IMG/VR virus record: IMGVR_UViG_3300032285_003852
Location: 1 to 24,758 of that record
DNA length: 24,758 nucleotides
Strand: one strand, 5' to 3'
Source: a virus
Shown: positions 104-22,339 of the stretch, one piece after another
Numbering within the stretch: position 1 is the first letter of the stretch
Layout: the number at the start of each line of letters is the position of its first letter
Notes under the pieces: model-generated
Databases searched by the model: none
Seen by the model: the letters and a program-made list of their open reading frames with translations, nothing else
Told to the model about the DNA's origin: nothing
Made by a program: the position numbers and the translations under genes

Positions 104-850
104 ATGGCAGCAGCAAAAGGAACAGCAGCACTTCTCGTTGAGATTGCTTTAAAAGAAGAGGGTTATGTAGAAGGCCCTAAAGATAATGAAACAAAATATG
201 GAGCTTTTACAAAAGCAAACTTTTTGCCTTGGTGCGGAAGTTTTGTAATGTGGTGTGCAAACCAGGCTGGAGTTAAGATTCCTAATACCGTATCAACTAT
301 GGCTGGAGCAGCAGCATTTAAAAAGATGGGCACTTGGACGGATGCAAATGTTGCAAAGCCAGAGCCTGGAGACATTGTTTATTTTGACTTTATGGCAGGA
401 GGAGCTCCAATTGAGCACGTTGGAATTGTTGTAAAAGACAATGGAGATGGCACAGTAACAACAATTGAAGGAAACACAGCTGGAGATAAAAAGAAATCTG
501 GATCACAGGCAAATGGCGGAGAAGCTGTAAAAAAGATTCGTGCATATAAGAAAAATCCTAAAGGTATACCAGTATTTATTGAAGGATTTGGACGCCCTAA
601 TTATAAAGGTAATGATGTAAATGCATCAGTTCCAGCAGCAATAATTCCAGCGTTCCCTGGCCAAATAAAGCCTGGAGATAAAGGAGATGCTGTTAAGATT
701 GTACAGCATGCTTTAACTTTAGTTGAAGATGGCGATTATGGTCCAGCTACTAAAGCAAAGGTAGTTGCATTTCAAGATAACCATGACTTGGTAGATTCCA
801 ATGGAATAATTGGTCCTAAAACTTGGGCGGAGCTAGTTAAACTTCTATGA
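104..850 (+). CDS. Endolysin: CHAP peptidase plus peptidoglycan-binding domain
   Basis: Predicted lytic enzyme of 248 residues that cuts peptidoglycan peptides at the end of infection. Residues about 5-150 look like a CHAP (NlpC/P60-type) cysteine peptidase: Cys44 in LPWCGSFVMW, His105 in PIEHVGIVV and Glu122/Asn124 in IEGN fit the catalytic set, and PEPGDIVYF is a typical core strand. Residues about 186-248 form a PG_binding_1-like repeat (GDAVKIVQ, DGDYGPATKAKV, GIIGPKTW). There is no signal peptide, so it needs a holin; two candidates lie at 5044-5509. The start has a good AGGAG 7 bases upstream. Its stop overlaps the next start (ATGA). Family call is confident; exact bond specificity (amidase or endopeptidase) cannot be read from sequence. 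Confidence 0.9.
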   Translation: MAAAKGTAALLVEIALKEEGYVEGPKDNETKYGAFTKANFLPWCGSFVMWCANQAGVKIPNTVSTMAGAAAFKKMGTWTDANVAKPEPGDIVYFDFMAGGAPIEHVGIVVKDNGDGTVTTIEGNTAGDKKKSGSQANGGEAVKKIRAYKKNPKGIPVFIEGFGRPNYKGNDVNASVPAAIIPAFPGQIKPGDKGDAVKIVQHALTLVEDGDYGPATKAKVVAFQDNHDLVDSNGIIGPKTWAELVKLL

Positions 851-1428
851 AAATAAAAGATCTGTTAGAAGAAGCCAGATCTGAAAATAAGTTAGCATTT
901 GTTAAAGGTTATGCAAACATAAACGTAGACTGGAATTACCTTGTAGAGCAAATTGATATTGCATTATCTACCAAGAAAAAAGAAGAGCTTGGAGATTTTG
1001 GAATTTGTTTACAAGAAAATAATTTAGTTGTAAGAGATTTATTTTATATGACAGTTGTGTCTTCATATCCAACTAAAAGTAAAGAAATCAATGCTATTGC
1101 AAACACTTTATCAAAAGACATTTGGGATGTTGAAGAATATAGAATGCCTCAAGTTTCTTATTTTGTAAACTTAGTTTCTAAAAACACTAATGTTTTTAAT
1201 AAGACTACAGTTGGACCTCATACAGATCCAACAGATGCAATATTTTTACAATTAGTAGGTAATGCAACTTGGAATACCTATAGTAAAGATAACCTAAAAG
1301 ACCCAATTGCTTCAGAAGTGGTTTACCCAGGAGACATAATTATAATACCTACTGGTGTATATCATGAGGTAGATGCTGTTAATCCGAGAGCTGGAATACA
1401 GTTTTGTTTCCCAGAGTTTATAGAATAA
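847..1428 (+). CDS. JmjC/cupin-like Fe(II)-dependent oxygenase-family protein
   Basis: A 193-residue protein with a likely double-stranded beta-helix fold. His125-x-Asp127 in VGPHTDP and His173 in PTGVYHEVD could form the 2-His-1-carboxylate iron site, and VVYPGDIIIIPTG is a typical cupin strand before the distal His. The N-terminus (DLLEEARSENKLAFVKGY) resembles those of the two minus-strand proteins at 20849-21409 and 21406-21984 (EAKSEGKHYAVFKNW), so the three look like paralogues. It overlaps the endolysin stop by 4 bases, so translation is likely coupled. The substrate is unknown; virion, nucleotide or small-molecule hydroxylation are all possible. A non-catalytic cupin is the alternative. 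Confidence 0.6.
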   Translation: MKIKDLLEEARSENKLAFVKGYANINVDWNYLVEQIDIALSTKKKEELGDFGICLQENNLVVRDLFYMTVVSSYPTKSKEINAIANTLSKDIWDVEEYRMPQVSYFVNLVSKNTNVFNKTTVGPHTDPTDAIFLQLVGNATWNTYSKDNLKDPIASEVVYPGDIIIIPTGVYHEVDAVNPRAGIQFCFPEFIE

Positions 1429-8979: not shown

Positions 8980-10089
8980 ATGAATAAAAAACTAATAACT
9001 GCGTTAATCGCATTAACACTTGCTGTTTCCCCAGCTGCTAATGCAGCTTTGAAGAATCAAACAGATTCTACACCAACTATTGCAATTCTTGATACAGGGA
9101 TTGATACATCGCTACCAGCTTTTAATGGAAAAATCATTCAAGAAGTATGTATTCTAGAATGGTCTACTTGTCCTAATGGCAAATCATTTATGGAAGGGCC
9201 AGGCGCAGCTTCAATGCCTGCAAACCTCATCAACTTAAATGGATTTGATCATGGAACTCTTATGACATCTGTATTTTTGCAAACAAATCCAAATGCCAAT
9301 GTTGTTTTTATTAAAATTATTGGAAATACATCTACAGGATTGCGACAAAATGCAGGAGAAGCATCAGTGTATAACGCACTTAATTGGGTAAAATCAAACG
9401 CATTGAAATACAATATTCAAGCAGTTAGCATGTCACAAGGACATCACACTCTAGGCGCAGCAGGAACAGACTACTGCCCAAAAACTCCAATTACTGAACA
9501 GGCAGTAAAAGATTTGATGGCTATACAGATACCAGTATTTTTTCCATCTGGAAATGGTCGTGACTACACACGTATTGATTGGCCTGCATGTCTGGACGCA
9601 TCTGTCTCTGTTGGATATGTAGATCAACAAAATGAAATTTCTGCTTCAAGCAACAATGATTCTGAAAAATTAGATTTTTTTGCTCCAGGTTTCTTTTCAG
9701 TTGCTGGCCCAGGAAATGTTTTAAAGAATATTTCAGGTTCATCTGCAGCAATTCAAGTAGCAGCAGGACAGTGGCTAAAATTAAAAACAGCAAAGCCAAC
9801 CTACTCCTATGATCAAATTTTTACTGCAATTAAATCTACAGCATCTAGCACAGTTGGAAGACAAGGTACATTTAATAAGCTAATTAATATTAATGCTGCT
9901 ATTTCTTACACAACACAACAGGCTGGACCAAGCCAACAAGAAATTGCTGCACAGGCAAAAGCAAAATTAAAAGCAGAAGTTGATGCAGCAATTGCAGCAG
10001 CAGAAGCTCAATATCAATTAGAATTAAAGACTGCACAAGACAAGCTTGCTGCAACTAAAGCACAATGGTTGGCAAAACTTAATGGCTGA
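8980..10089 (+). CDS. Secreted subtilisin-like serine peptidase (S8)
   Basis: A 369-residue protein with a signal peptide (hydrophobic 5-20, likely cleavage after AANA, residue 22). The catalytic triad is visible: Asp38 in AILDTGID, His91 in GFDHGTLMTS, Ser255 in SGSSAA; Asn192 in PSGNG supplies the oxyanion hole. Asp38 lies only about 15 residues after the cleavage site, so there is no room for the usual I9 pro-domain. After the catalytic domain (to about 310) comes an Ala/Lys/Gln-rich helical tail ending QWLAKLNG, similar in style to the tail of the 10823-11824 protein. It likely acts outside the cell on surface proteins or a receptor. The stop overlaps the next start. Confidence 0.88.
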   Translation: MNKKLITALIALTLAVSPAANAALKNQTDSTPTIAILDTGIDTSLPAFNGKIIQEVCILEWSTCPNGKSFMEGPGAASMPANLINLNGFDHGTLMTSVFLQTNPNANVVFIKIIGNTSTGLRQNAGEASVYNALNWVKSNALKYNIQAVSMSQGHHTLGAAGTDYCPKTPITEQAVKDLMAIQIPVFFPSGNGRDYTRIDWPACLDASVSVGYVDQQNEISASSNNDSEKLDFFAPGFFSVAGPGNVLKNISGSSAAIQVAAGQWLKLKTAKPTYSYDQIFTAIKSTASSTVGRQGTFNKLININAAISYTTQQAGPSQQEIAAQAKAKLKAEVDAAIAAAEAQYQLELKTAQDKLAATKAQWLAKLNG

Positions 10090-10822: not shown

Positions 10823-11824
10823 ATGAAATCATTTAAGAAAATCGCAGTAGGCGTAGTTGCAGCTATGTCAATTGCAACAATCGTAGCTACACCTGCTAGT
10901 GCAGCAACAACAACACTTACGGTAGGCGGGTCATCAGTTTCAACTGGTACAACTGCAGCAAATCCTGTTGTTTTGCCAGTACCAGCGGACAACTCAGTTG
11001 ATTCAGCAGATGCTCTAAAGATTGCTATTACTGGTCTTGATACAGGGACAGTAGTTTCAGCAGTCGCATCTAATGCATCAATCGTACCAGCATTAGCAAC
11101 AGTTTCTACACCAGTAACTGCTTCAGCAGGAACTGCATCACTATCAATTAACACAGGAACAGGCACAACTGCTGATTTCTATGTGTTTACAAAGACAGTT
11201 AATGCAGGAACAGTTGTTGTTACTATTGGCGGAAACGTCACAACTTACTACGTAAAGGGCTCTGCTGGATCAGCATATAACCTTTCTGTAGTAGCAGCAG
11301 ATACAGCAAATGTATCATCAATAAATAAAGTTTATGTAAAGACGACAGACGCTTTTGGCAACCCAGTTGTTACATCAACACCTGCGATTACTGTAATCGG
11401 AGCAACAGCAGGTTCAGTTTCTGTATCAGATACAGCAACAGGAACATTTGTTTTTGATTTAACAGCACCAACAACTGTTGGCAATGCTGCATTTACAGCA
11501 GCAATCACAGCAACAGATGTAACTGGATTTGCAGCAGCAGCAAAATCTGCTACTAAGTTCGTTGCAATTACAAGCGTTGCAGATGCTCTAGCACTTGCTA
11601 ATGCACAAATTGCTTCTCTAACTGCACAACTTGCAGCAGAAAAAACAGCTCGCACAGCAGATGCAGCAGCAGCAACAGCAGCAGCAACAAAGGCAGCAGC
11701 CGATGTAGCAACAGTAAAGGCAGCAGCGGATCTTGCAGCAGCAGCTTACAAGGCAGAGTACAATGCTCTTGCTACAAAGTGGAATAAAGCCAATCCAAAG
11801 GCTAAGGTTGCACTAAAGAAGTAA
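10823..11824 (+). CDS. Secreted Ala/Thr/Val-rich surface-type protein
   Basis: A 333-residue protein with a clear signal peptide (KSFKKIAVGVVAAMSIATIV, cleavage after ASA near residue 28). Residues about 29-245 are beta-rich Thr/Val/Ala sequence in Ig-like style (one cycle ends VFDLTAPTTVGNAAFTAAI). Residues about 255-333 are a helical Ala-rich coiled coil ending in AEYNALATKWNKANPKAKV and KK. The gene has a strong AAGGAG, is monocistronic and ends in a strong terminator, so it may be highly expressed. Looks like a host-type cell-wall or S-layer-like protein acquired by the phage. No enzyme motif is seen. Confidence 0.65.
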   Translation: MKSFKKIAVGVVAAMSIATIVATPASAATTTLTVGGSSVSTGTTAANPVVLPVPADNSVDSADALKIAITGLDTGTVVSAVASNASIVPALATVSTPVTASAGTASLSINTGTGTTADFYVFTKTVNAGTVVVTIGGNVTTYYVKGSAGSAYNLSVVAADTANVSSINKVYVKTTDAFGNPVVTSTPAITVIGATAGSVSVSDTATGTFVFDLTAPTTVGNAAFTAAITATDVTGFAAAAKSATKFVAITSVADALALANAQIASLTAQLAAEKTARTADAAAATAAATKAAADVATVKAAADLAAAAYKAEYNALATKWNKANPKAKVALKK

Positions 11825-11883: not shown

Positions 11884-12675
11884 TTGAGATTTCATTGGAT
11901 GCTTAGAGGTGAAAATAACTCTATTGAATATTTATCTAAACTTTCAAAACAATTAAATGATTCGGGGTATTATTCAATTCTTTTAGTTTATCATTCCAAA
12001 GAAAATGATTTTTTAACAAAAGCAATAAGAGTTATGTCAGAAAAAGAAAAAATTAAATATATGATTGCCATAAGAACATATGCAATTAGCCCTGAATATT
12101 TATCTATGATTATTAGATCTGCTAATGAGATAGCTAAAGACAAAATAATTTTAAATATTGTGTCAGGAGATATTCATTCTGATGAAACCTCTTTAGAAGA
12201 TATTGTAAATAAAAATGATTTTAATACTAAAGAAAAAAGATTAAAGTATACCGATCAATGGATTAATAAATTTATTAAATTAAGCCCAAGTACAGAACTT
12301 TTTATTGGAGGAAACTCAGATATAACTGAGTCTATAGCAAATAAATATAATATTAATAATATATTAATGATAGATAAGTATCAAAATAAAATTAAAAAAT
12401 CTGAATTTAAAAAAAATAAAAAACAAACTATTTGTTCTATTGTAACAATAAGAGAGACTCAAGATGAAGCAAATGCTTTTTATGAAAATTTTTTACATGA
12501 AACGCAAAAGCAAACTTTTATTTTCGGCACAAAAGATATGTTTAAATCAACTGTAAAGTATTTAGAGGGTTTAGGGGTTACCGATATGCTTATACATTCT
12601 CACGATAGCGATCTTGAATCTTATAGAATTCATGATATAATTAAGGAAATACTGGAGGAACAAAATGGAATCTAG
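11884..12675 (+). CDS. Luciferase-like (LLM class) flavin-dependent protein, copy 1
   Basis: A 263-residue paralogue of the 13866-14642 protein. It begins with a TTG, chosen because TAGGAG lies just upstream and the paralogue starts at the same residue (RFHWM versus KFHWM). The block KYMIAIRTYAISPEYLSMI followed by KIILNIVSGD matches the central strands of the bacterial luciferase / alkanesulfonate monooxygenase (SsuD) fold, and TICSIVTIRETQDEANAFY and FIFGTKDMFKSTV match later ones. It is shorter than SsuD (about 380). It may cleave organosulfonates or act on another substrate with FMNH2 or F420. Overlaps the DUF2061 gene by 11 bases. Confidence 0.65.
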   Translation: MRFHWMLRGENNSIEYLSKLSKQLNDSGYYSILLVYHSKENDFLTKAIRVMSEKEKIKYMIAIRTYAISPEYLSMIIRSANEIAKDKIILNIVSGDIHSDETSLEDIVNKNDFNTKEKRLKYTDQWINKFIKLSPSTELFIGGNSDITESIANKYNINNILMIDKYQNKIKKSEFKKNKKQTICSIVTIRETQDEANAFYENFLHETQKQTFIFGTKDMFKSTVKYLEGLGVTDMLIHSHDSDLESYRIHDIIKEILEEQNGI

Positions 12676-12865
12676 AAAAAAAAGTTTATTTAAAACTATA
12701 ACTTGGCAGATTGTGCATATGGTAATGGTGGCGGGAACCATACTTATCCTCACTGGTGAGTGGGAGATTGCTGGAATTGCAGCAATTGCAGAATTGTTTT
12801 GGGAATCAGCTTTATATTTTGTACATGAAAGAGCGTGGGCAAAATTTGGAAATAAGGTTAAATAA
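12665..12865 (+). CDS. DUF2061 membrane protein, copy 1
   Basis: A 66-residue protein with two hydrophobic helices (about residues 14-30 and 34-52), the family start KSLFKTITWQIVHM and the family end ALYFVHERAW. DUF2061 proteins have no proven role but are often found near sulfate-activation genes such as cysC, which fits the APS-kinase-like gene downstream. Coupled by overlap to the LLM gene upstream and by TAATG to the next ORF. Confidence 0.85.
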   Translation: MESRKKSLFKTITWQIVHMVMVAGTILILTGEWEIAGIAAIAELFWESALYFVHERAWAKFGNKVK

Positions 12866-13654: not shown

Positions 13655-13860
13655 TGTCAGAAGCTTTTAAAAAAGAAGACGGCACTGGCATGACCCCACC
13701 GCCAAACAGCGGTGCGGCTGCTGGAGCTGTTACAAGTAGAGAAACGCCTAAAAAATATCCAAGACAAGGTGTAAAGATAGATACAAATAAACATGGTATT
13801 AGAAGAGAGACAAGCTTAATTCCTAAGCCTGCTAAAAAAACGGGTAGAAAAAAAGTATAA
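13654..13860 (+). CDS. Small basic, probably disordered protein
   Basis: A 68-residue Pro/Gly/Lys-rich ORF with an acidic start and a basic end (KPAKKTGRKKV). No fold is recognised. It ends 5 bases before LLM copy 2 and overlaps the previous ORF by one base, so it belongs to this operon. Nucleic-acid binding is possible from charge alone. Confidence 0.6.
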   Translation: MSEAFKKEDGTGMTPPPNSGAAAGAVTSRETPKKYPRQGVKIDTNKHGIRRETSLIPKPAKKTGRKKV

Positions 13861-13865
13861 GTTAA

Positions 13866-14642
13866 ATGAAGTTTCATTGGATGCAGAAGTATAGTAAAAC
13901 TCCATCTGAATTAAAAAACACTTTAATTAAAATAAATGAAGTCGGATATGAATCCGTGTTGGTTACATTCAATACTGGAATGTCCGATCCTTTTACAAAA
14001 TGTGCAAATGCTTTTATTCCAAATCAAAAAACTAAATTTATGGTTGCAATAAGACCATATGTTTTGACTCCAGCTTACCTTTTGATGATAATAAAAACAT
14101 TTAATCAAATATGTAAAGATTTTCTCATACTGAATATAGTAACTGGAACAAGTGATGAAGAAAATTTAATATTTGGAGAATCAACATCTTTGCAGGAAAG
14201 AAAAATCTATGCTGGTAAATTTGTAGAAAATATGAAGAGTGTAAATAATCAACATAATTTTTGTAATGGTGGGCTGCCTACAATATTTTTTAGTGGTGGT
14301 TCTGATGAAAACATAAATAATGCAGCTGAATACGGTGATGGGTTAATATATTTATTAGAAGATCATTTGACTAATCCAAGCAGATTTGATATTATTAAAG
14401 GAAGAAAGATATTAAAAATATTTTTAATAATATGTGAAACTCAAGATGAAGCAAATTTAATATATAGTAGAGTGGATGGCCCTCAAGTTGGAAGCTCAAT
14501 TTATGGAACAAAAGATTATGTTAAGCAAAAACTTCTTGAATTACAAAATTTTGAAATTTTGCTTTCATCATCAACAATTTATGATTGCGATGACGCCATT
14601 CATAGCCTAATAAAAGAAATAAATAAAAAGATAAATAAATGA
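13866..14642 (+). CDS. Luciferase-like (LLM class) flavin-dependent protein, copy 2
   Basis: A 258-residue paralogue of copy 1. The central block KFMVAIRPYVLTPAYLLMI with FLILNIVTG is close to the SsuD/luciferase-fold pattern FLVALRPG...NVVTG, and the downstream QERKIYAGKFVENM, FSGGSDENINNAAEYGDG and CETQDEANLIY segments fit the same fold. The C-terminal part after about residue 230 is short compared with SsuD. It overlaps the APS-kinase gene (ATGA), which links it to sulfur metabolism. FMNH2 or F420 use cannot be told from sequence. Confidence 0.7.
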   Translation: MKFHWMQKYSKTPSELKNTLIKINEVGYESVLVTFNTGMSDPFTKCANAFIPNQKTKFMVAIRPYVLTPAYLLMIIKTFNQICKDFLILNIVTGTSDEENLIFGESTSLQERKIYAGKFVENMKSVNNQHNFCNGGLPTIFFSGGSDENINNAAEYGDGLIYLLEDHLTNPSRFDIIKGRKILKIFLIICETQDEANLIYSRVDGPQVGSSIYGTKDYVKQKLLELQNFEILLSSSTIYDCDDAIHSLIKEINKKINK

Positions 14643-15400
14643 TTATTCAAATAATTGGACTTCCAGGATCTGGTAAAACAGAACTTGCAAAAGCCCTTAA
14701 AGAAAGAATTAATGCCATCCATCTTAATGCGGATGAAGTTCGTGCTACAGTTAATTCTGACTTAGGCTTTACTCCTGAAGATAGAATTGAGCAAGCAAGA
14801 AGAATGGGCGAAATGGCTCGTCTTATTGCAAAACAAGGAGTGGCTCCAGTTATAGTTGATTTTGTTTGTCCAATAGAACTAACTCGTACAGCATTTGGCA
14901 AGCCAGATATTCTAGTATTTATGGATACAATTGCAGAAGGTCGCTTTGAAGACACAAATAAAATTTTTGAGCGGCCAACAGGCTTTGATGTATCTTTTAT
15001 TAGCCATAATTTAAATGCAGAAGAAAAAGCATCTCATATTATTAAAAAATTTGGTCTACACGACTGGTCTGCACCCACAACACTAATGCTTGGTCGCTAC
15101 CAGCCTTGGCACGAAGGCCACCACGCTCTTTACAAAGAGGCGGGTAACAGAACAGACCAAGTGCTACTTGGAGTTCGTAATACATACAATACAAGCGAAA
15201 AAGATCCTCTTAAGTTTGATCAAGTAAAAGAATATATTGCTAAAGATGAGTTTATGGATGGTGCAATGGTTTTGCGTCTTCCAAACATAACTAATATTGT
15301 TTATGGTCGTGATGTAGGTTATAAAATTGAACAAGTAAAGTTAGGAGATGAAATTGAAGCTATTTCAGCAACTGAAAAACGTAAGCAAATGGGTATTTAA
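14639..15400 (+). CDS. APS-kinase-like / nucleotidyltransferase fusion
   Basis: A 253-residue two-domain protein. Residues 1-135 resemble adenylylsulfate kinase (CysC): P-loop GLPGSGKT at 7-14, HLNADEVR at 28-35, LGFTPEDR at 42-49, and a FERPTGFDVSFISH lid region. Residues about 145-253 form an HIGH-type nucleotidyltransferase: GRYQPWHEGH at 152-161 and ISATEKRK at 242-249, the two signatures of the NMNAT / cytidylyltransferase / ATP-sulfurylase fold. The kinase makes PAPS from APS; the second domain could make APS (a compact PAPS synthetase) or another nucleotide product. Its end overlaps DUF2061 copy 2. Domain calls are firm, the second substrate is not. Confidence 0.78.
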   Translation: MIIQIIGLPGSGKTELAKALKERINAIHLNADEVRATVNSDLGFTPEDRIEQARRMGEMARLIAKQGVAPVIVDFVCPIELTRTAFGKPDILVFMDTIAEGRFEDTNKIFERPTGFDVSFISHNLNAEEKASHIIKKFGLHDWSAPTTLMLGRYQPWHEGHHALYKEAGNRTDQVLLGVRNTYNTSEKDPLKFDQVKEYIAKDEFMDGAMVLRLPNITNIVYGRDVGYKIEQVKLGDEIEAISATEKRKQMGI

Positions 15401-15683
15401 TCAATTTGAAAAATCTGGTAAAGCAATTAGCGATGCAGAAGAAAGATTATATTTTGATGATACACCTCATGAACCAATTAAATGGGTATCTCATGGCAGA
15501 TCGTTAGCAAAAGCAGTAAGTTGGAGATTTTTTGGCAACCTAATTTCTTTCATTATTATTTATGGATTAACCCATGATGGCAAGCTGGCCCTTGCTGCAT
15601 CTGGAATTGAGCTTATAGTTAAAATTGTTCTTTATTATTATCATGAACGTGCCTGGAATAAAATTAAATGGGGAAGAGAATAA
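15354..15683 (+). CDS. DUF2061 membrane protein, copy 2
   Basis: About 109 residues. TTG 15354 is preferred because AGGAG (15343-15347) lies six bases upstream; ATG 15348 is possible but touches the AGGAG. The gene overlaps the APS-kinase fusion by 47 bases. Residues 1-45 are a hydrophilic extension absent from copy 1, then the DUF2061 unit: HGRSLAKAVSWRFFGNLI, two hydrophobic helices and VLYYYHERAWNKI. The deep overlap with a cysC-like gene argues that the two proteins act together. Confidence 0.83.
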   Translation: MKLFQQLKNVSKWVFNQFEKSGKAISDAEERLYFDDTPHEPIKWVSHGRSLAKAVSWRFFGNLISFIIIYGLTHDGKLALAASGIELIVKIVLYYYHERAWNKIKWGRE

Positions 15684-15774: not shown

Positions 15775-15989
15775 AAAAAAGAAAACTATTAAATAATGTA
15801 TATTCATTTCTTCCTAGAATGTATCAGGGTTCAGAGGTAAGAGAATTAGATGCACCTATAGATTTGATTATACATACAAAAGCTCCAGGCAAGTGGTTGC
15901 TAATAGATTTAGAAACAGGTCAGGAATATATAGGCCTAGATCAACCAGATCAGTACGGTGTTTGGAAAAGAATAAAAGAAAAAGATTAA
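15771..15989 (+). CDS. Small phage protein of unknown function
   Basis: A 72-residue basic protein; the C-terminal half (GKWLLIDLETGQEYIGLDQP and YGVWKRIKEK) looks like a small beta-sheet domain seen in phage hypotheticals. The last motif WKRIKEK also ends the WhiB-like protein. Its 3' end overlaps the convergent sulfotransferase gene by 4 bases. Confidence 0.6.
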   Translation: MKKRKLLNNVYSFLPRMYQGSEVRELDAPIDLIIHTKAPGKWLLIDLETGQEYIGLDQPDQYGVWKRIKEKD

Positions 15990-16639
15990 TCTAAGATGGG
16001 AGTCCAAAATATTTTTTTGGCTTCTTCGTATAATTCAAAATCCATATAGTTAATTTTTTTTATTTTATTGATATCGGATTTAGATAAAGAATTATATATA
16101 TCTTTTACTCCCTCTGTTCTAAACTCATCTGTATCCTTTATTCCGTCATCAAAAGGTAATGAATTTATATTAAGGTCTAAACAAATTTTTTCTCTTAAAG
16201 ATTTAATAGTTTTAATGTTTATATCTTTTGAATCAATTAAAAGATTTACTCTTTTTAATCTATTTAATATTAAATCTTTATCAAAATTTATATCTGAATG
16301 AGGGTCAACTTTATTTTCTTTCCATGTAATAAAACTTCTTGCTTGCAAATTTTCAATTGAGTTAATTCTTTCAATCAAATCACTTTTTGTTTTAACATTT
16401 GAAAAAGCAACGTGATAGCTTATAAGACATTCTAGGGGATCACGAAGCAGGCAAATTATGTATGAAGAATCTTCAATCTCAGAGCTCCAACCCCAATGGG
16501 TCCAATCATCTGGATCTGCATTAGGTCTAATTAATTTAATATTTTCATCTTTAGACCAACGAACTATGTGTCTAAATACATATTTATGAAAAAATCTTCC
16601 AGCTGTTCTATTCACATGTAAGAAATAAACTGATTTCAT
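15986..16639 (-). CDS. Sulfotransferase-like protein
   Basis: A 217-residue protein. FLHVNRTAGRFFHKYVF (residues 6-22) matches the 5'-phosphosulfate-binding loop pattern of sulfotransferases (FIHIPKTGGTS), although the Lys is replaced by Arg11. LLRDPLECLISYHV (64-77) matches the 3'-phosphate-binding motif RDPxxRxxSxY with Arg66 and Ser74. The rest is Lys/Ile-rich helix. Such enzymes move sulfate from PAPS to sugars, lipids or proteins; the adjacent APS-kinase fusion could supply PAPS. It is convergent with that operon and has its own leaderless-type promoter. GC is very low (long A/T runs). The acceptor is unknown. Confidence 0.68.
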   Translation of the reverse strand: MKSVYFLHVNRTAGRFFHKYVFRHIVRWSKDENIKLIRPNADPDDWTHWGWSSEIEDSSYIICLLRDPLECLISYHVAFSNVKTKSDLIERINSIENLQARSFITWKENKVDPHSDINFDKDLILNRLKRVNLLIDSKDINIKTIKSLREKICLDLNINSLPFDDGIKDTDEFRTEGVKDIYNSLSKSDINKIKKINYMDFELYEEAKKIFWTPILD

Positions 16640-16702: not shown

Positions 16703-16852
16703 ATGCTTAAAATGTTATTAAAAATAATAAAGTGTAAAGCTGTTGGGCACACGCTTGTAGAAGCTGGAAGCTGTCCATTTACAGGTCTTTCCTACAATTA
16801 TTGCGAAAGATGTGAATTAATGTTGCCAAAGGAAGGTCAATATGTCGAATAA
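16703..16852 (+). CDS. DUF1660-like zinc protein
   Basis: A 49-residue protein with Cys11, His16, Cys24, Cys34 and Cys37 in the pattern KCKAVGH...GSCPFTGLSY..CERC, which I recognise as similar to DUF1660 phage/prophage proteins. It is likely zinc-binding; role unknown. It is leaderless by prediction and overlaps the first 2OG oxygenase gene by 11 bases, providing the GGAAGG ribosome site for it. Confidence 0.7.
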   Translation: MLKMLLKIIKCKAVGHTLVEAGSCPFTGLSYNYCERCELMLPKEGQYVE

Positions 16853-17423
16853 ACTAGTTAAAAGAGAAAACGGAATTTGGCAATGGAATTCTGTATTTAA
16901 TAATCCAAGTGAGCTTTTGTCAAATGTTTTATCAAAAAATTGGAAGCCATACAATAATGACGGCGGAGGAAGTACATTAATAGGAAGATCAACAATTGTA
17001 TATGATAATGAAGAAGTATACGATCAAATATTAAATGTATTTTTAAAATGTTTAGAAGAGTATATTGATGAAAACAATTTAGATATAACCACAGGTAACT
17101 TGGGAATTGGTTGGTGGCTAGTAAGAGATTACGCAGCTGGATCAGTAATGACAGCTCATGAAGATGCTTATAGTTATGTTAAAGATGGAGAACATGAAGT
17201 TAAGCCTAAACTAACAATGCTTCTTTATATAAATGAAGATTATGAAGGTGGAGAAATTTCTTTTCCAAATGAAAATGTAATGATAAAGCCACAGGCTGGC
17301 TCAGTTGTAATTTTTCCAAGTAATTTATCTCATGAGGTTAAAACAGTAATTTCAGGAAATAGATATATGACTCAAACTTATATTTATGAGAAACATTTTT
17401 CTCATTATCAAACAAAATTTTAG
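16842..17423 (+). CDS. Fe(II)/2-oxoglutarate oxygenase, P4H-like (copy A)
   Basis: A 193-residue prolyl-4-hydroxylase-like protein with an intact iron site: His106-x-Asp108 in TAHEDAYS and His164 in NLSHEVK; Arg174 in SGNRY would bind 2-oxoglutarate. DYEGGEISFP and KPQAGSVVIFPS are the family's core strands. Such enzymes hydroxylate protein, nucleic-acid or small-molecule substrates. A GGAAGG ribosome site lies inside the preceding gene. First of five related genes up to 20848. Confidence 0.85.
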   Translation: MSNKLVKRENGIWQWNSVFNNPSELLSNVLSKNWKPYNNDGGGSTLIGRSTIVYDNEEVYDQILNVFLKCLEEYIDENNLDITTGNLGIGWWLVRDYAAGSVMTAHEDAYSYVKDGEHEVKPKLTMLLYINEDYEGGEISFPNENVMIKPQAGSVVIFPSNLSHEVKTVISGNRYMTQTYIYEKHFSHYQTKF

Positions 17424-17431
17424 GGATATAA

Positions 17432-17698
17432 ATGATCTATAATATTGTAGAAAAATATTTAATGCGCCCGAAACGACTTAGAGAAGCAATTCAAGCGGTA
17501 GTTAGAGAAAATGATGAGTTGTTACGCAGACTTGCAGCATATAAAGAAGAAATGCCAACTAATCTTACATGGGCAGAAGGCAATAGATGGTACGGTTGGA
17601 CTTACAATTCAATAAAAAAACGCTACTATTTTGATGATATTGGCAATGAATCTCTCATGGGCTTATGGGAAGATCAATGGAAAAGAGAAGAGGATTAA
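17432..17698 (+). CDS. Coiled-coil / Trp-Tyr-rich phage protein
   Basis: An 88-residue protein: N-terminal helix with coiled-coil character (REAIQAVVRENDELLRRLAA), then an aromatic C-terminal domain (NRWYGWTYNSIKKRYYFDDI). No family is recognised. It sits 8 bases after copy A and 1 base before the CDGSH gene, so it is part of the operon. Confidence 0.6.
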   Translation: MIYNIVEKYLMRPKRLREAIQAVVRENDELLRRLAAYKEEMPTNLTWAEGNRWYGWTYNSIKKRYYFDDIGNESLMGLWEDQWKREED

Positions 17699-17699
17699 A

Positions 17700-17843
17700 A
17701 TGGGTGTATGTAAGTGCGGACTATCAGCACAATATCCAGAATGCGACGGTACACATAAGGCAGTTATAAATAATGAGATTTTAAGACAATCAATTATTGA
17801 AGCGTATAAAAAATGGGAAACAGACAATTCTAATATAGTATAA
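17700..17843 (+). CDS. CDGSH-type iron-sulfur mini-protein
   Basis: A 47-residue protein with a complete CDGSH motif: Cys4-x-Cys6-x2-Ser-x3-Pro-x-Cys15-Asp-Gly-Thr-His19 (CKCGLSAQYPECDGTH). In mitoNEET-family proteins this set of three Cys and one His holds a redox-active [2Fe-2S] cluster. The rest is one helix (LRQSIIEAYKKWE). ATG 17700 is used because it directly precedes the motif and has AGAGGA upstream. A possible role is electron or Fe-S transfer to the neighbouring iron enzymes; that is inference. No membrane anchor. Confidence 0.85.
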   Translation: MGVCKCGLSAQYPECDGTHKAVINNEILRQSIIEAYKKWETDNSNIV

Positions 17844-17844
17844 T
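17839..17844 (+). promoter_or_regulatory. -10 box, near-leaderless promoter
   Basis: TATAAT overlaps the CDGSH stop and ends 8 bases before the ATG at 17853, giving a leader of about 2 bases. Confidence 0.5.
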
Positions 17845-17852
17845 AGAACTAT

Positions 17853-18017
17853 ATGGGTAATCCTAAGTACACTAATGAGTCCTGGTTGAGGGATCAATAT
17901 GTGACACAAGAGATAGAGATTGTCGATATAGCGGCATCTTGCAAGGTAGATAAATCGGTCATAATAAGATGGCTAGATGAATATGGGATATATAGAAACT
18001 GGAAGAGGTTCGGATGA
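17853..18017 (+). CDS. Solo helix-turn-helix protein
   Basis: A 54-residue ORF. The core (WLRDQYVTQEIEIVDIAASC, then KVDKSVIIRWLDEYGIYR) matches the small HTH found at the end of phage HNH and homing endonucleases and in solo phage HTH proteins (IA..C.V....I..WL...GI). It may bind DNA and control the operon it begins. Stop overlaps the next ATG (ATGA). Confidence 0.72.
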   Translation: MGNPKYTNESWLRDQYVTQEIEIVDIAASCKVDKSVIIRWLDEYGIYRNWKRFG

Positions 18018-18676
18018 TAGAGGCAATAAAGCTTGCTGAAAAAGTATGGTATTTTAAAAATGCTATAGAAAATCCAAAAGAGATTTTTGAATCATTGGAT
18101 TCTTGGATGCCAGTTGCTAATCAGGACTATATGGAAACATCAATTGTTTCAACAAAATCTTATCTAGAAGATAGCGATAATGCAATATTTAAATGTTTAG
18201 ACATTTGGTACAATGCAAACCAACATTTAAATCCTGATAGCTATAAGCTAATGCCAAAAACACATTTTTACAAAAGAGGTGCAGGTGGTGGATACAGCCC
18301 TCATACAGACTTTGCAGCGATGCCAGACGGCACATATGAGGAAGTAACTGCAACTATATTGGGATATTTTGCAGATCCTGCCGACTTTGGTGATGGAGAA
18401 ATAACCTTTCCAGATTACGACATAGTCTTAAAACCAGAAATTGGCAGTATAGTTATTTTTGGTAATAAGGTAAGACATGGAGTAAACGATGTTGCATTTG
18501 GACAAAGAGGGCTTGGAAGCACATTTCTTGTAAAAAATAATATATTTTATAAGAGCATAATGGTTGATCCAAAAAATATTTCAAAGCAAGAAGAATTACA
18601 TATTAGGGAAGAATTTCCTCAATATGAATCTAAAAATGGTAATATAGATTTATCAAAACAAATAGGAGAAGAATAA
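18014..18676 (+). CDS. Fe(II)/2-oxoglutarate oxygenase, P4H-like (copy B)
   Basis: A 220-residue protein with an intact site: His97-x-Asp99 in YSPHTDFAAM, His155 in KVRHGVN, Arg165 in GQRGLG as the likely 2-oxoglutarate ligand; strands FGDGEITFP and KPEIGSIVIFG. It has a longer C-terminal tail (PKNISKQEELHIREEFPQYE) than its neighbours. GGAAGAGG lies upstream. Coupled to the HTH gene before and the GPx gene after (one-base overlap at 18676). Confidence 0.83.
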   Translation: MIEAIKLAEKVWYFKNAIENPKEIFESLDSWMPVANQDYMETSIVSTKSYLEDSDNAIFKCLDIWYNANQHLNPDSYKLMPKTHFYKRGAGGGYSPHTDFAAMPDGTYEEVTATILGYFADPADFGDGEITFPDYDIVLKPEIGSIVIFGNKVRHGVNDVAFGQRGLGSTFLVKNNIFYKSIMVDPKNISKQEELHIREEFPQYESKNGNIDLSKQIGEE

Positions 18677-19191
18677 TGTCAGTATATGATTATGAAGTAA
18701 GATTAAGCAATGGCGCATTGTTGCCACTTTCAGATTTTAGAGATAAAGTTCTGCTTTTAGTAAATACAGCAAGCAAATGTGGATTTACTAAGCAGTATGA
18801 AGGCCTACAAGAACTTCACAAGAAGTATGCTGATCGTGGTCTTGTTGTAATTGCATTTCCTTCAAATCAATTTGGTGGACAAGAGCCTGGATCTGATGCA
18901 GAAATTCAAGAATTTTGCAAAACAAATTACAACGTAACATTTACTGTAGCGGCTAAAGTTGGAGTAAAGGGAGAAGATGCAGACCCACTATTTTCATATA
19001 TCATGTCTGTAGTTGGACACGAAGTTCCTTGGAATTTTACCAAATTTATCGTTGATAATGATGAGATCACAGTAAACTCTCCAGATACTGAACCAACCGA
19101 TATGGATGCTTTAATTGATCACTTGCTATTAAAAAAAGCAAGTGCTGTAGATAGCTTGAATGCAGAATCAATTACTGATGAGCAGCTTTAA
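18676..19191 (+). CDS. Glutathione-peroxidase-family thiol peroxidase
   Basis: A 171-residue GPx with Cys35 (NTASKCGFTKQY) in place of selenocysteine, Gln69 in FPSNQFGGQEPG and Trp119-Asn120 in PWNFTKF, which complete the catalytic tetrad. FCKTNYNVTFTVAAKV carries a second Cys (81) where thioredoxin-dependent members have the resolving Cys, so the thioredoxin at 10291-10596 could be its reductant. It would reduce peroxides, possibly protecting the oxygenases or host during infection. The last 15 residues form an acidic tail. AGGAGAAGA precedes the start. Confidence 0.93.
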   Translation: MSVYDYEVRLSNGALLPLSDFRDKVLLLVNTASKCGFTKQYEGLQELHKKYADRGLVVIAFPSNQFGGQEPGSDAEIQEFCKTNYNVTFTVAAKVGVKGEDADPLFSYIMSVVGHEVPWNFTKFIVDNDEITVNSPDTEPTDMDALIDHLLLKKASAVDSLNAESITDEQL

Positions 19192-19741
19192 TCCAGTTCA
19201 AATTATAGGCGATTTTGGAGCTTATATACAAAATTGCGCTACCAAAGAATCTATGGAAGAAATGCTGCAAACCATTCAAACATTTGAATCCATGCCGCTA
19301 AGATTTGGTACAAGATATACCGTTCATAGTTTCAGAACTTCACATGCTCCATTTTTTAAGGGAATACGTGAAATAATGACAGAAGGAATTAAAATATTTT
19401 TAGAAAAAACTGATAGATCTATAGATGATTATAAGCCATCAAATGATTATTATGCTGTTGTAAAATGGAATCAAGAGAGAATGGGTCGTCATCAGCAAAG
19501 CGTTGATACTAAAAATGAAGTTTTAATAATTCCAGAAGTAAGTTCTTATTTGTTTATGACAGACGATTATGAGGGTGGAGAGTTTAACTTTACAGATTTA
19601 AATATAAGCATCAAGCCAAAAGCTGGTGATATGATTGTATTTAACTCAAATGCTTTTATAAGTATCAACCCAATGAAAGATGGCGGAAGAAAAATTGAAG
19701 TTAATATGCCCATGTATTTAGCATCAAAAGATATAGATTAG
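19178..19741 (+). CDS. Degenerate 2OG-oxygenase-fold protein (copy C)
   Basis: A 187-residue paralogue of the 20294-20848 protein (FGAYIQNC...MPLRFGTRY versus FGIFIENC...IDMRFGTYK). The fold strands remain (DDYEGGEFNF, KPKAGDMIVFNS) but the iron site is broken: HxD is His105-Gln-Gln107, and the distal His position reads AFISIN (Ile161). Arg171 is retained. It is therefore unlikely to be a normal Fe/2OG enzyme and may be a regulatory or binding pseudoenzyme. Start ATG 19178 overlaps the GPx end by 14 bases; the frame is intact and the gene sits within the operon, so it is not simple decay. Confidence 0.75.
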   Translation: MSSFNPVQIIGDFGAYIQNCATKESMEEMLQTIQTFESMPLRFGTRYTVHSFRTSHAPFFKGIREIMTEGIKIFLEKTDRSIDDYKPSNDYYAVVKWNQERMGRHQQSVDTKNEVLIIPEVSSYLFMTDDYEGGEFNFTDLNISIKPKAGDMIVFNSNAFISINPMKDGGRKIEVNMPMYLASKDID

Positions 19742-19748
19742 ATACATT

Positions 19749-20294
19749 ATGGCACAACCAAATGTAGTAAAAGATTTTATTTCAAAAGAAACAGCAAAGT
19801 ATTTAAATGATTACTTAAGGCCTAAATCATATTTAAATCCAAGAGGTCTTTTGAATGTTTATCTTAAACCATTAGACATATCAAAAAATGGCGCAGTAGA
19901 AGATCACGTTGTTCATGACTTAATTAATATGATAGAAAACTCCATATCTGCTCAGTTTGGATTTAAAAAATCAGAGATCTTTTTAGATAGAATGAACTAT
20001 CAGGTTTTGCAAAAAGGTGAAGAGCTGGGATGGCATGCAGATGCATATGGCGGTGTTGATGGATATGAAGACAACTATTATTCTGCCCTATTGTATTTAA
20101 CTGATAATTATGAAGGTGGAGAAATTCATTTTTATGAAAACAATTCTGGTGATAAAGCAGACAGCACTGCGTATAAACCACAGGCTGGCACACTTATATT
20201 CTTTAAGGGTGACAGAGATTATCCGCACTCAGTAAATGAAGTTATTGATGGAGAAAGATCTAACATAATACTATTCTATGGAGTCAAAAAGTAG
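19749..20294 (+). CDS. Fe(II)/2-oxoglutarate oxygenase, P4H-like (copy D)
   Basis: A 181-residue protein with intact His96-x-Asp98 (LGWHADAYGG), distal His160 (DYPHSVNEV) and Arg170 (DGERSNIILFYG). It has the full prolyl-4-hydroxylase core, with SALLYLTDNYEGGEIHF and YKPQAGTLIFFKG. This is the most canonical member of the block. The N-terminal VVKDFISKETAKYLNDYL is a typical P4H lead helix. It follows copy C by 7 bases and its stop shares a base with the next start. Confidence 0.87.
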   Translation: MAQPNVVKDFISKETAKYLNDYLRPKSYLNPRGLLNVYLKPLDISKNGAVEDHVVHDLINMIENSISAQFGFKKSEIFLDRMNYQVLQKGEELGWHADAYGGVDGYEDNYYSALLYLTDNYEGGEIHFYENNSGDKADSTAYKPQAGTLIFFKGDRDYPHSVNEVIDGERSNIILFYGVKK

Positions 20295-20848
20295 TGGAGC
20301 TACTTCTAAAAGATTTTGGTATTTTTATTGAAAATTGTGTAGATAAAGAATCAATAGAATCATTCTTAAAATCAATTTCTAGTTTAGAAGATATAGATAT
20401 GAGATTTGGAACATACAAAAGATTAGATATTAATGATAAAACAGTTATAGATAAATATAATTATATAGAGTCTATTATAATCGAAACTGCAAAAAATAAC
20501 TTAAGCAAAATTGGTAAAAATATAGAAGATTATGAAAAATGTAATAACATATATAAAATAAAAACTTGGGGTTTAGATCAAGAAATTGGTTTTCATAAAG
20601 ATAGTGTGGGGGTAGAGGTCACACAAATAAAAAGCCCAGCAATTAGTATTGTTTTTTATTTAACTGAAGATTTTGAAGGTGGAGAAATAATCTTTCCTAA
20701 TAAAGATAATGAGTATTCAGATGAAGACATAATCATAAAGCCAAAAGCTGGAAGCATTATTATATTTCATTCAGATATAACTCATAGAGTAAATAAGCTT
20801 ATAAGCGGCAGAAGAATAGCAACAGATTTATTTTTATCTAAAAAATAA
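20294..20848 (+). CDS. Fe(II)/2-oxoglutarate oxygenase, P4H-like (copy E)
   Basis: A 184-residue protein starting with GTG, one base overlapping the previous stop. Iron ligands His101-x-Asp103 (GFHKDSVG) and His164 (DITHRVN) are intact, with Arg173/174 (SGRRIATDL). FEGGEIIFP and KPKAGSIIIFHS are family strands. It is the closest relative of the degenerate copy C, so one of the pair lost its metal site after duplication. Its stop abuts the minus-strand gene with no spacer and no terminator. Confidence 0.83.
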   Translation: MELLLKDFGIFIENCVDKESIESFLKSISSLEDIDMRFGTYKRLDINDKTVIDKYNYIESIIIETAKNNLSKIGKNIEDYEKCNNIYKIKTWGLDQEIGFHKDSVGVEVTQIKSPAISIVFYLTEDFEGGEIIFPNKDNEYSDEDIIIKPKAGSIIIFHSDITHRVNKLISGRRIATDLFLSKK

Positions 20849-21409
20849 TTATTCCCACAATGGTCCAGCATCAAATATAATAGAGTACTTTTCTGAGAGG
20901 TTTTGTGTTCTATGCCAAGTACCAGCTCTAAGCCATAGAAGATCACCTGGCTCAAGCATGATTGTCTCTGGCTCTTTTCTCCAAGCTGTTTGCCATTCCC
21001 AACCTTGTCGTTCTTGATATTTAAATTCTTTTGGCACACCAGTCATCTCACCATAAAGCCCAACTTGCCATTCTGTAACACCTTTGCAGTGCCAATGAAG
21101 TATGTCGTAAGGGTCTTTGTGAAGCGGCTCTCCTGGCCATACAGAGTCTAAATTTCTGTATCTTTTGCCTTCAAATATGTAGTATTGATATTCAATATCT
21201 GGGTATGCTTTTTTTGACTCATCTAAAAAGTATTGCATAGGTTCAGGAAGCGGAACATCCTGAATAAACTTACGAACACCAGTGCTTGCTGGATCAATTA
21301 TTTCCTCAAACTCTTTCCAGGTTGGTACGGGGTGGTGCCAATTGCGTAATACTGCATAGGGAAGATTATCCCTTTTTGCATTACTAACAAACTCAGCCAA
21401 TGTTGTCAT
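20849..21409 (-). CDS. JmjC/cupin-like Fe-dependent oxygenase-family protein
   Basis: A 186-residue protein. His97-x-Asp99 (PLHKDPYDILHWHCKG) and His166 (AGTWHRTQN) fit a JmjC-type iron site; MLEPGDLLWL is the strand before the distal His. It is a paralogue of the next gene and, more distantly, of 847-1428. It overlaps that gene by ATGA. GGGGAT precedes its ATG. Its base composition is visibly less AT-rich than the plus-strand oxygenases, hinting at a separate origin. Substrate unknown. Confidence 0.72.
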   Translation of the reverse strand: MTTLAEFVSNAKRDNLPYAVLRNWHHPVPTWKEFEEIIDPASTGVRKFIQDVPLPEPMQYFLDESKKAYPDIEYQYYIFEGKRYRNLDSVWPGEPLHKDPYDILHWHCKGVTEWQVGLYGEMTGVPKEFKYQERQGWEWQTAWRKEPETIMLEPGDLLWLRAGTWHRTQNLSEKYSIIFDAGPLWE

Positions 21410-21984
21410 TTTTTATCCCCGTCCTTGTATATTTTGCCAGCCTGCATGATCACTGAGTATTTATCGCAAATATTTTCTGTTTCATGCCATGACATATTAT
21501 CAAACCAAAGAACATCGCCAGGCTCTAAGATAAATGTATCGTAAGGTCCAGTCCAATGAGCATCCCAATCAAAGTATGTTCCAACATCTGGTTTGGCCTT
21601 TCTATAATCATTCTTTGCTTCTGCATGAATACCAACATTCCATTTGGTAACCCCAGTACAGTGCCAATGAATTACATCAAACATGTCGTGATGAAGCTTA
21701 GATCCAGGCTTGTTATAGTAAAAGTTTCTATAATAAATATTGGAGAAAATATAAAAATCATTATCTGATTCAGGATAAGCCTTATTTGCCTCATCAATAA
21801 AATATTGTATCTTTGAATTAACTTCTCTATTTTCTAGCTGGAGGCGTCTAAACCACTCGTCTTCTGGACCGTACATGGCGTCTATTTCTTTTCTGGTAGG
21901 AGTAGGTTGATGCCAGTTTTTAAATACGGCATAATGTTTTCCTTCAGATTTAGCTTCTTTAATTAGATCAGATAATGTAGTCAT
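21406..21984 (-). CDS. JmjC/cupin-like Fe-dependent oxygenase-family protein
   Basis: A 192-residue protein that begins MTTLSDLIKEAKSEGKHYAV, close to its downstream paralogue. His98/His99-x-Asp100 in KLHHDMFDVIHWHCTG and His167 in NMSWHETEN give an iron-binding set; ILEPGDVLWF is the preceding strand. It starts from a near-leaderless promoter and is first in a two-gene minus-strand operon that runs against the P4H block. Role unknown; a cupin without oxygenase activity is the alternative. Confidence 0.72.
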   Translation of the reverse strand: MTTLSDLIKEAKSEGKHYAVFKNWHQPTPTRKEIDAMYGPEDEWFRRLQLENREVNSKIQYFIDEANKAYPESDNDFYIFSNIYYRNFYYNKPGSKLHHDMFDVIHWHCTGVTKWNVGIHAEAKNDYRKAKPDVGTYFDWDAHWTGPYDTFILEPGDVLWFDNMSWHETENICDKYSVIMQAGKIYKDGDKK

Positions 21985-22102: not shown

Positions 22103-22339
22103 ATGGATAATATAGAATTAACAGATGAAGAGATTTCAAAGAATTATATCTCAGATGATGAGCATATGGATAAATGGAATAATCTTGAAAAAGCTTGCTG
22201 GAAAGGCTATAAGCAAGTAGGAATGAAAGATAAAAATGGTAAGCAAGTACCTAACTGCGTACCTATTAATAAATCGACGGGATTACCAGAAGAGCCAACA
22301 ACTTCTTGGGATGGCGTATTTAAACCAAAGGTAGATTAA
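22103..22339 (+). CDS. Small phage protein with a CWxGY...VPNCVP motif
   Basis: A 78-residue protein. ACWKGYKQVGMKDKNGKQVP followed by NCVPINKS is a motif that recurs in many unrelated phages, mostly as a short stand-alone or C-terminal domain, without a proven function. The N-terminus is acidic (ELTDEEISKNYISDDEHMDK). First gene of a three-gene plus-strand group. Confidence 0.78.
   Translation: MDNIELTDEEISKNYISDDEHMDKWNNLEKACWKGYKQVGMKDKNGKQVPNCVPINKSTGLPEEPTTSWDGVFKPKVD

Follow-up and report, generated by a model that had tools for sequence, protein, structure and literature searches.

What might a virus achieve with a tight cluster of oxygenase genes, and did such a cluster arise by duplication or by separate gains? 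These questions are raised by positions 16842-21984 of the IMG/VR virus record IMGVR_UViG_3300032285_003852, a linear record of 24,758 bases analyzed here from position 1 to 24,758 and referred to below as the window. Few unexplained accessory genes of aquatic phages are as frequent as those for oxygenases dependent on 2-oxoglutarate (2OG). The present locus offers a small, ordered and conserved set of them, with an internal control in the form of a naturally dead paralogue and with defined partners (glutathione peroxidase, GPx, in the locus itself and DUF6065 elsewhere), and the targets of phage oxygenases thereby become directly testable.

Oxygenase folds and active sites in the window

Using open reading frames (ORFs) called by a simple longest-ORF rule, we recovered all of the oxygenase-fold genes described in a preliminary reading of the same DNA (the sequence-only reading), seven in 16842-21984 plus the one at 847, at or no more than one start codon away from where it had placed them (Table 1; genes are named by their lower coordinate). 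Pfam profile matches likewise bore out its division into five prolyl 4-hydroxylase (P4H)-like genes (PF13640) and three JmjC_2 genes (PF08007), with 19178 falling below the cut-off. At a PF13640 cut-off of 27 bits, E-values were 1.5e-12 for 16842, 6.6e-7 for 18014, 1.2e-13 for 19749 and 3.4e-9 for 20294; 19178 (19160 in the longest-ORF call) scored 20.5 bits (E 9e-4), and despite this its paralogues and orthologues align over their full length. The three JmjC_2 genes all exceed the PF08007 cut-off of 22 bits (847, E 7e-9, 35.7 bits; 20849, E 4e-6, 26.8 bits; 21406, E 2e-6, 27.9 bits) and carry HxD...H. The triad together with the downstream basic residue for 2OG reads HDHR in 16842, 18014, 19749 and 20294, and HQIR in 19178. 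Judged from these motifs, the window holds eight oxygenase folds, seven of which are plausible catalysts. The genes of 16842-21984 are arranged head-to-tail, neighbours being spaced by -14 to +9 bases; the run on the plus strand stops at 20848, and the convergent, overlapping minus-strand JmjC pair starts at 20849.

Table 1. Oxygenase genes of the window, genes lying among them, and further features
Coordinates	Strand	Feature	Remarks
16842..17423	+	P4H-like 2OG-Fe(II) oxygenase (PF13640), HED/H	triad H106/D108/H164, R174; widest orthologue set of the members
17432..17698	+	conserved 88-aa protein inside the putative operon	84-85% identical in G017-G019
17700..17843	+	small CDGSH-type iron-sulphur-like ORF (CKCG...CDGTH)	PF09360 27.3 bits, just under the 29.5 cut-off, half domain
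17853..18017	+	conserved 54-aa ORF, helix-turn-helix-like by eye only	81-85% in G017-G019
18014..18676	+	P4H-like 2OG oxygenase, triad intact (HTD/H)	orthologues in G001, G020, G021
18676..19191	+	glutathione peroxidase (GSHPx) within the oxygenase cluster	E 1.4e-38
19178..19741	+	pseudo-oxygenase, PF13640 fold; HxQ for HxD, I/T for distal His	six viral records; purifying selection
19749..20294	+	P4H-like 2OG oxygenase, triad intact (HAD/H)	93% identical in G020/G021
20294..20848	+	P4H-like 2OG oxygenase, triad intact (HKD/H)	fast-evolving; clade shared with 19178
20849..21409	-	JmjC_2 (PF08007) oxygenase, HKD...H	81-89% identical in G017-G021
21406..21984	-	JmjC_2 (PF08007) oxygenase, HHD...H	39% identical to 20849; ATGA-type overlap with 20849
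847..1428	+	third JmjC_2 oxygenase, HTD...H	adjoins endolysin gene
11884..12675	+	relative of 13866 luciferase-like monooxygenase	about 27-30% identity to 13866 group
13866..14642	+	luciferase-like monooxygenase (PF00296)	E 5e-8
14639..15400	+	APS-kinase-like domain fused to NMNAT-type nucleotidyltransferase-like domain	
15986..16639	-	sulfotransferase-like protein beside cluster (weak)	PF03567 18.4 bits, below cut-off; phrog_3347

A conserved pseudo-oxygenase within the cluster

ORF 19178 reads HQQ in place of HxD and has an isoleucine at the distal histidine position, and the triad aspartate and distal histidine are lost in all six viral records that carry this gene. When 601 PF13640-like proteins were aligned to a local profile, without de-duplication of overlapping loci, both histidines, the aspartate and the basic residue are all kept in about 520, and the HQ-I/T state is confined to the 19178 lineage. 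Pairwise ratios of nonsynonymous to synonymous change (dN/dS) within this lineage are 0.07-0.23, comparable to those of the active genes. Since the loss is shared by all six records and the gene is under purifying selection, we regard 19178 as a maintained pseudo-oxygenase, and a conserved dead P4H paralogue is a genuinely new part of the locus. Its start at 19178, rather than at the longest-ORF position 19160, agrees with the L131 orthologue and overlaps the upstream GPx gene by 14 bases. A Foldseek search with its structure model retrieved oxygenase folds at low template modelling (TM) scores (about 0.2-0.3) and was excluded as substrate evidence.

A second oxygenase lineage carries asparagine for the triad aspartate (HxN...H; L094:3959, L098, L109, L113, L117, L120 and L129) and, from its motif, may be another inactive or altered class.

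Conservation and origin of the cluster

The exact order 16842-18014-GPx-19178-19749-20294-JmjC-JmjC was found in two contigs from different metagenomes, G020 (41.6 kb) and G021 (116.2 kb). Three further contigs (G017, G018 and G019) show a variant order, in which no 18014 orthologue was found and the 19749/20294-like genes lie past the JmjC pair, and G001, L055 and L058 retain 16842 and GPx along with other P4H copies (four in one L058 stretch). Such recurrence in independent contigs also speaks against a chance arrangement. Orthologues of 16842 are 83% identical in G017-G019 and 46-55% identical in G001, G020, G021, L055 and L058. Pairwise dN/dS is mostly 0.03-0.25 for 16842, 18014 and the JmjC pair and higher for 20294 (0.45-0.6); values where dS exceeds 1 are saturated and indicative only, and the value of 1.76 for L131/L132 rests on almost no synonymous change.

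In a tree of 59 sequences, the five P4H-like genes of the window need five separate placements, each grouping first with its G017 and/or G021 orthologue, and a single clade for all five was rejected by the approximately unbiased test (p-AU 5e-86), which speaks against the clustered radiation supposed in the sequence-only reading. A supported clade of 12 rows (99/98) unites 19178 and 20294 with tandem copies of L058, indicating that part of the cluster is a local duplication. The phylogeny thus gives a divided answer to the question of duplication versus separate gains: only 19178 and 20294 resemble local duplicates, whereas the other P4H-like genes sit on separate branches. The genes of a second oxygenase island in G017 fall on other branches of the tree.

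Parent phage and probable host

Nearly all window genes are present in order in G017 (115,655 bases), and window gene 2402 matches both ends of that contig; G017 thus probably represents a near-complete genome that is circularly permuted. The window would then make up about a fifth of a G017-like genome, and its parent would be a tailed phage of some 115 kb. The G017 major capsid protein is 55-60% identical to those of Streptomyces phages of the Stanwilliamsviridae, and WhiB is encoded in the window (44.3 bits). Judging from the WhiB-like gene and the actinophage kinship of the capsid, the host is probably an actinobacterium, and probably an aquatic one, and the window phage, as read from these sequences, most likely infects Actinobacteria.

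In G017, PF13640 matches were obtained at 11 places by Pfam search, at 13788 and 16853 by local profile and, sub-threshold, at 57228, giving at least 13 PF13640-like genes; two JmjC genes are also present. Its second oxygenase island (55-60.5 kb) lies amid tail-fibre and LamG-type appendage genes and has a G-X-Y run beside it.

A possible role in protein hydroxylation

The nearest solved relatives in the PDB are prolyl 4-hydroxylase and PKHD-type enzymes for 16842 and 18014 and NO66/MINA for 847; the JmjC pair weakly matches YxbC, a putative asparaginyl hydroxylase, and the ribosomal-L16 arginine hydroxylase. JmjC_2 relatives of known function act on proteins, and collagen-like repeats are the classical P4H substrate. 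As most of the nearest solved relatives are protein hydroxylases, we tentatively favor, from knowledge of these families, a model in which the cluster may serve post-translational protein hydroxylation. Also in line with it are the conserved gene order, the mostly low dN/dS, the tight spacing, the steady nearness of GPx to oxygenases and, in G017, the second island amid tail-fibre and LamG-type genes. According to this model, two convergent gene runs, each probably co-transcribed and translationally coupled, would form a module of four active P4H-type and two active JmjC-type oxygenases, one dead P4H paralogue and GPx. With Fe(II), O2 and 2OG, every active enzyme would hydroxylate side chains on a protein of its own, from the host or the phage, in the course of infection. 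The dead paralogue might pair with an active oxygenase, binding its substrate or regulating it, and the peroxidase, perhaps together with the CDGSH-type protein and a phage thioredoxin, could limit peroxide damage.

Several points weigh against this model. The window's own oxygenase cluster does not lie beside tail genes, and the window contains no G-X-Y runs beyond a GNSGGS linker. Collagen-like ORFs (25 ORFs) are not enriched near oxygenases (median distance 2190 versus 1708 bases; p 0.97), and a reading as collagen hydroxylases was rejected. Small molecules, too, can be substrates of PF13640 members; the two predicted structures are poor (predicted local distance difference test, pLDDT, 53 and 46), leaving pocket shape uninformative; the dN/dS of 20294 is unlike that of a housekeeping hydroxylase; and the analysis identified no substrate of the window oxygenases.

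A more specific version seems very improbable to us: the inactive P4H paralogue would confer specificity as one subunit of a complex of several oxygenases (P4H set and JmjC pair) that places several different hydroxylations on one host protein complex and is protected by its own peroxidase. If true, this would amount to a phage-encoded combinatorial hydroxylation machine.

Alternative functions

The sequence-only reading envisaged a multi-step modification, which may exist with proteins or a host molecule as its target. Instead of proteins, the oxygenases might target small molecules, among them free amino acids and lipids, or might consume 2OG to shift carbon/nitrogen signalling, a control of host metabolism that has been proposed for cyanophages (PMC3037559). 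The metabolic-looking neighbours (luciferase-like monooxygenases, the APS-kinase/NMNAT-like fusion, GPx and thioredoxin) are consistent with such control, which we nevertheless consider doubtful, since changed 2OG levels would not require many divergent, separately conserved active sites or a conserved dead paralogue, and several specific protein targets fit these features better than bulk 2OG consumption. The action of characterized JmjC_2 relatives on proteins points in the same direction.

Less likely again is the tailoring of a glycan, peptide or surface molecule, in which hydroxyls introduced by the oxygenases would be sulfated, the APS (adenosine 5'-phosphosulfate)-kinase-like protein aiding the supply of 3'-phosphoadenosine 5'-phosphosulfate (PAPS) and the halogenase of G017 contributing. 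The window does contain an APS-kinase-like domain and a weak sulfotransferase match, and G017 has three sulfotransferase-like genes and a tryptophan halogenase beside an oxygenase, but G020 and G021 carry the same oxygenases in unchanged order without the sulfotransferase and the APS-kinase fusion in this region. The sulfation genes are therefore separable from the cluster, and a constant sulfation partnership was rejected as not constant across relatives; moreover, PAPS synthesis by the fusion protein is itself only putative.

Modification of phage DNA bases by TET/JBP-like or AlkB-like action, also raised in the sequence-only reading, is disfavored and in our view very improbable. Membership of the superfamily would by itself account for the Tet_JBP match of 16842, which stays below threshold (17.8-18.4 bits, cut-off 34.9), and for the poor-quality resemblance of the 19178 fold to Naegleria TET (TM about 0.27), and no C5-methyltransferase, thymidylate-synthase family gene or Tet_JBP match above the cut-off was found in the window and three relatives (two of 116 kb). 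Finally, an assembly artefact, which the sequence-only reading had named as a possible undoing of the cluster, or a decaying gene junkyard, as might be suspected from the triad lost in one of eight genes, is refuted by the synteny described above (exact order in two independent contigs, a variant in three more), by purifying selection and by the lack of frameshifts in the eight ORFs.

Comparison with known phages and hydroxylases

In the same search, PF13640 matches numbered 0 in Sham and Mildred21, 5 in P-SSM4, 12 each in S-SSM7 and S-SCSM2R, 14 in S-SCSM1, 11 in G017 and 13 in G021. Cyanophages usually have 1-5 2OG oxygenase genes (PMC9602691; PMC3037559), and the 24 found over several Pfam families in cyanophage S-SCSM1 were called uncommon (PMC9602691). 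Thirty viral records, picked for holding one relative, have 1 to 13 PF13640 genes each, with 8-10 in about 10 kb in some loci; given this selection, the counts indicate that dense islands exist widely and do not give their frequency. The clustering, described as unusual in the sequence-only reading, is so relative to the closest cultured phages as judged by capsid protein, which have none, but not relative to S-SCSM1 or to many equally dense aquatic viral contigs (5-13). Overall, the window cluster is a variant of a known multi-oxygenase phenomenon with new elements; what the papers found in our search describe for cyanophages thereby extends to an actinophage-like lineage, the genes being missing from its nearest cultured relatives.

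Similar to this lineage, T4-like cyanophages (S-SCSM1, S-SSM7, S-SCSM2R and P-SSM4) contain many divergent PF13640 genes per genome, some clustered beside a tail-fibre gene. The present lineage differs in its Stanwilliamsviridae capsid relative, in a higher density (11 matches in 115.7 kb) and in the JmjC_2 pair, GPx and conserved inactive paralogue inside the cluster. Sham and Mildred21 are the nearest annotated phages by major capsid protein and similar in genome size, yet are without any PF13640 gene.

The three JmjC_2 proteins share PF08007 and HxD...H with the ribosomal oxygenases (ROX) ROXA/YcfD, NO66 and MINA but measure 186-193 aa, compared to 373-489 in the solved chains, and the sequence match of the JmjC pair to ROXA is very weak (E 1.2 or worse). 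The window ORFs end 10-14 residues past the cupin match, the dimerisation and winged-helix C-terminal region being absent; with no room for these domains, 847, 20849 and 21406 are not classed as ROX proteins. Likewise, the P4H-like genes share Pfam family and triad with bacterial and animal prolyl 4-hydroxylases and PKHD-type hydroxylases, from which they differ in that matches are weak (~25 bits) and cover part of the domain, and in that the window has no collagen-like substrate.

Relatives of the JmjC pair were found neither in INPHARED by tblastn nor in bacterial genomes by a scan limited to short degenerate patterns, and at the search sensitivity used the pair is a genuinely new part of the locus. 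847 has no close relative among the compared phages. A profile scan of bacterial genomes with 16842, dependent on similar patterns, confirmed nothing, and a pattern search of viral contigs with 20294 returned nothing, although relatives occur in fetched loci.

Recurrent neighbours of phage oxygenases

We grouped the proteins of 116 viral loci into families and scored as near those within two genes of an oxygenase (background 809/1874, 43%). DUF6065 was the commonest neighbour (116 of 124 copies near), and all copies were near an oxygenase for a 118-aa family (25/25), GPx (21/21, in 19 loci) and a LamG-type appendage protein (20/20); as the contigs are related to each other, Fisher p-values overstate the significance of these enrichments. 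DUF6065 is not in the window but occurs in the second island of G017 (L035:15805-16515) and in about 70 other viral loci, and our literature search found no paper on DUF6065 with phage. The recurring GPx and DUF6065 partners are genuinely new.

Collagen-like proteins with perfect GFFGPP repeats share loci with oxygenase islands in L065, L072, L077, L082, L088 and L089. At L034:14078-15574, G017 encodes a tryptophan halogenase (PF04820, E 7e-103), and three sulfotransferase-like genes and a 2OG oxygenase lie with it within about 7 kb; a tryptophan-halogenase homologue is also reported from lake actinophage DSL-LC01 (PMC10611076).

Other genes of the window

In the 14639-15400 fusion, 92-93% identical in G017-G019, the APS-kinase-like part is N-terminal to the NMNAT-type domain, with HEGH and ISAT motifs; G020 and G021 have a shorter protein in its place. 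A DUF2061 membrane protein at 12665-12865 (Pfam) and a relative at 15348-15683 (blast, G018/G001) both adjoin a luciferase-like or kinase gene. The small ORFs of the cluster are conserved, yet by eye not precursor-like, and a reading as ribosomally synthesized and post-translationally modified peptide (RiPP)-like precursors was set aside. Signal-peptide-like starts were seen in a subtilase-family protease (8980-10089), a repetitive protein (10823-11824) and a PA14-domain protein (2402-5047). Finally, 22103-22339 encodes a small conserved protein with the motif ACWKGYKQVGMKDKNGKQVPNCVP, which in other phages is part of larger proteins (165-291 aa).

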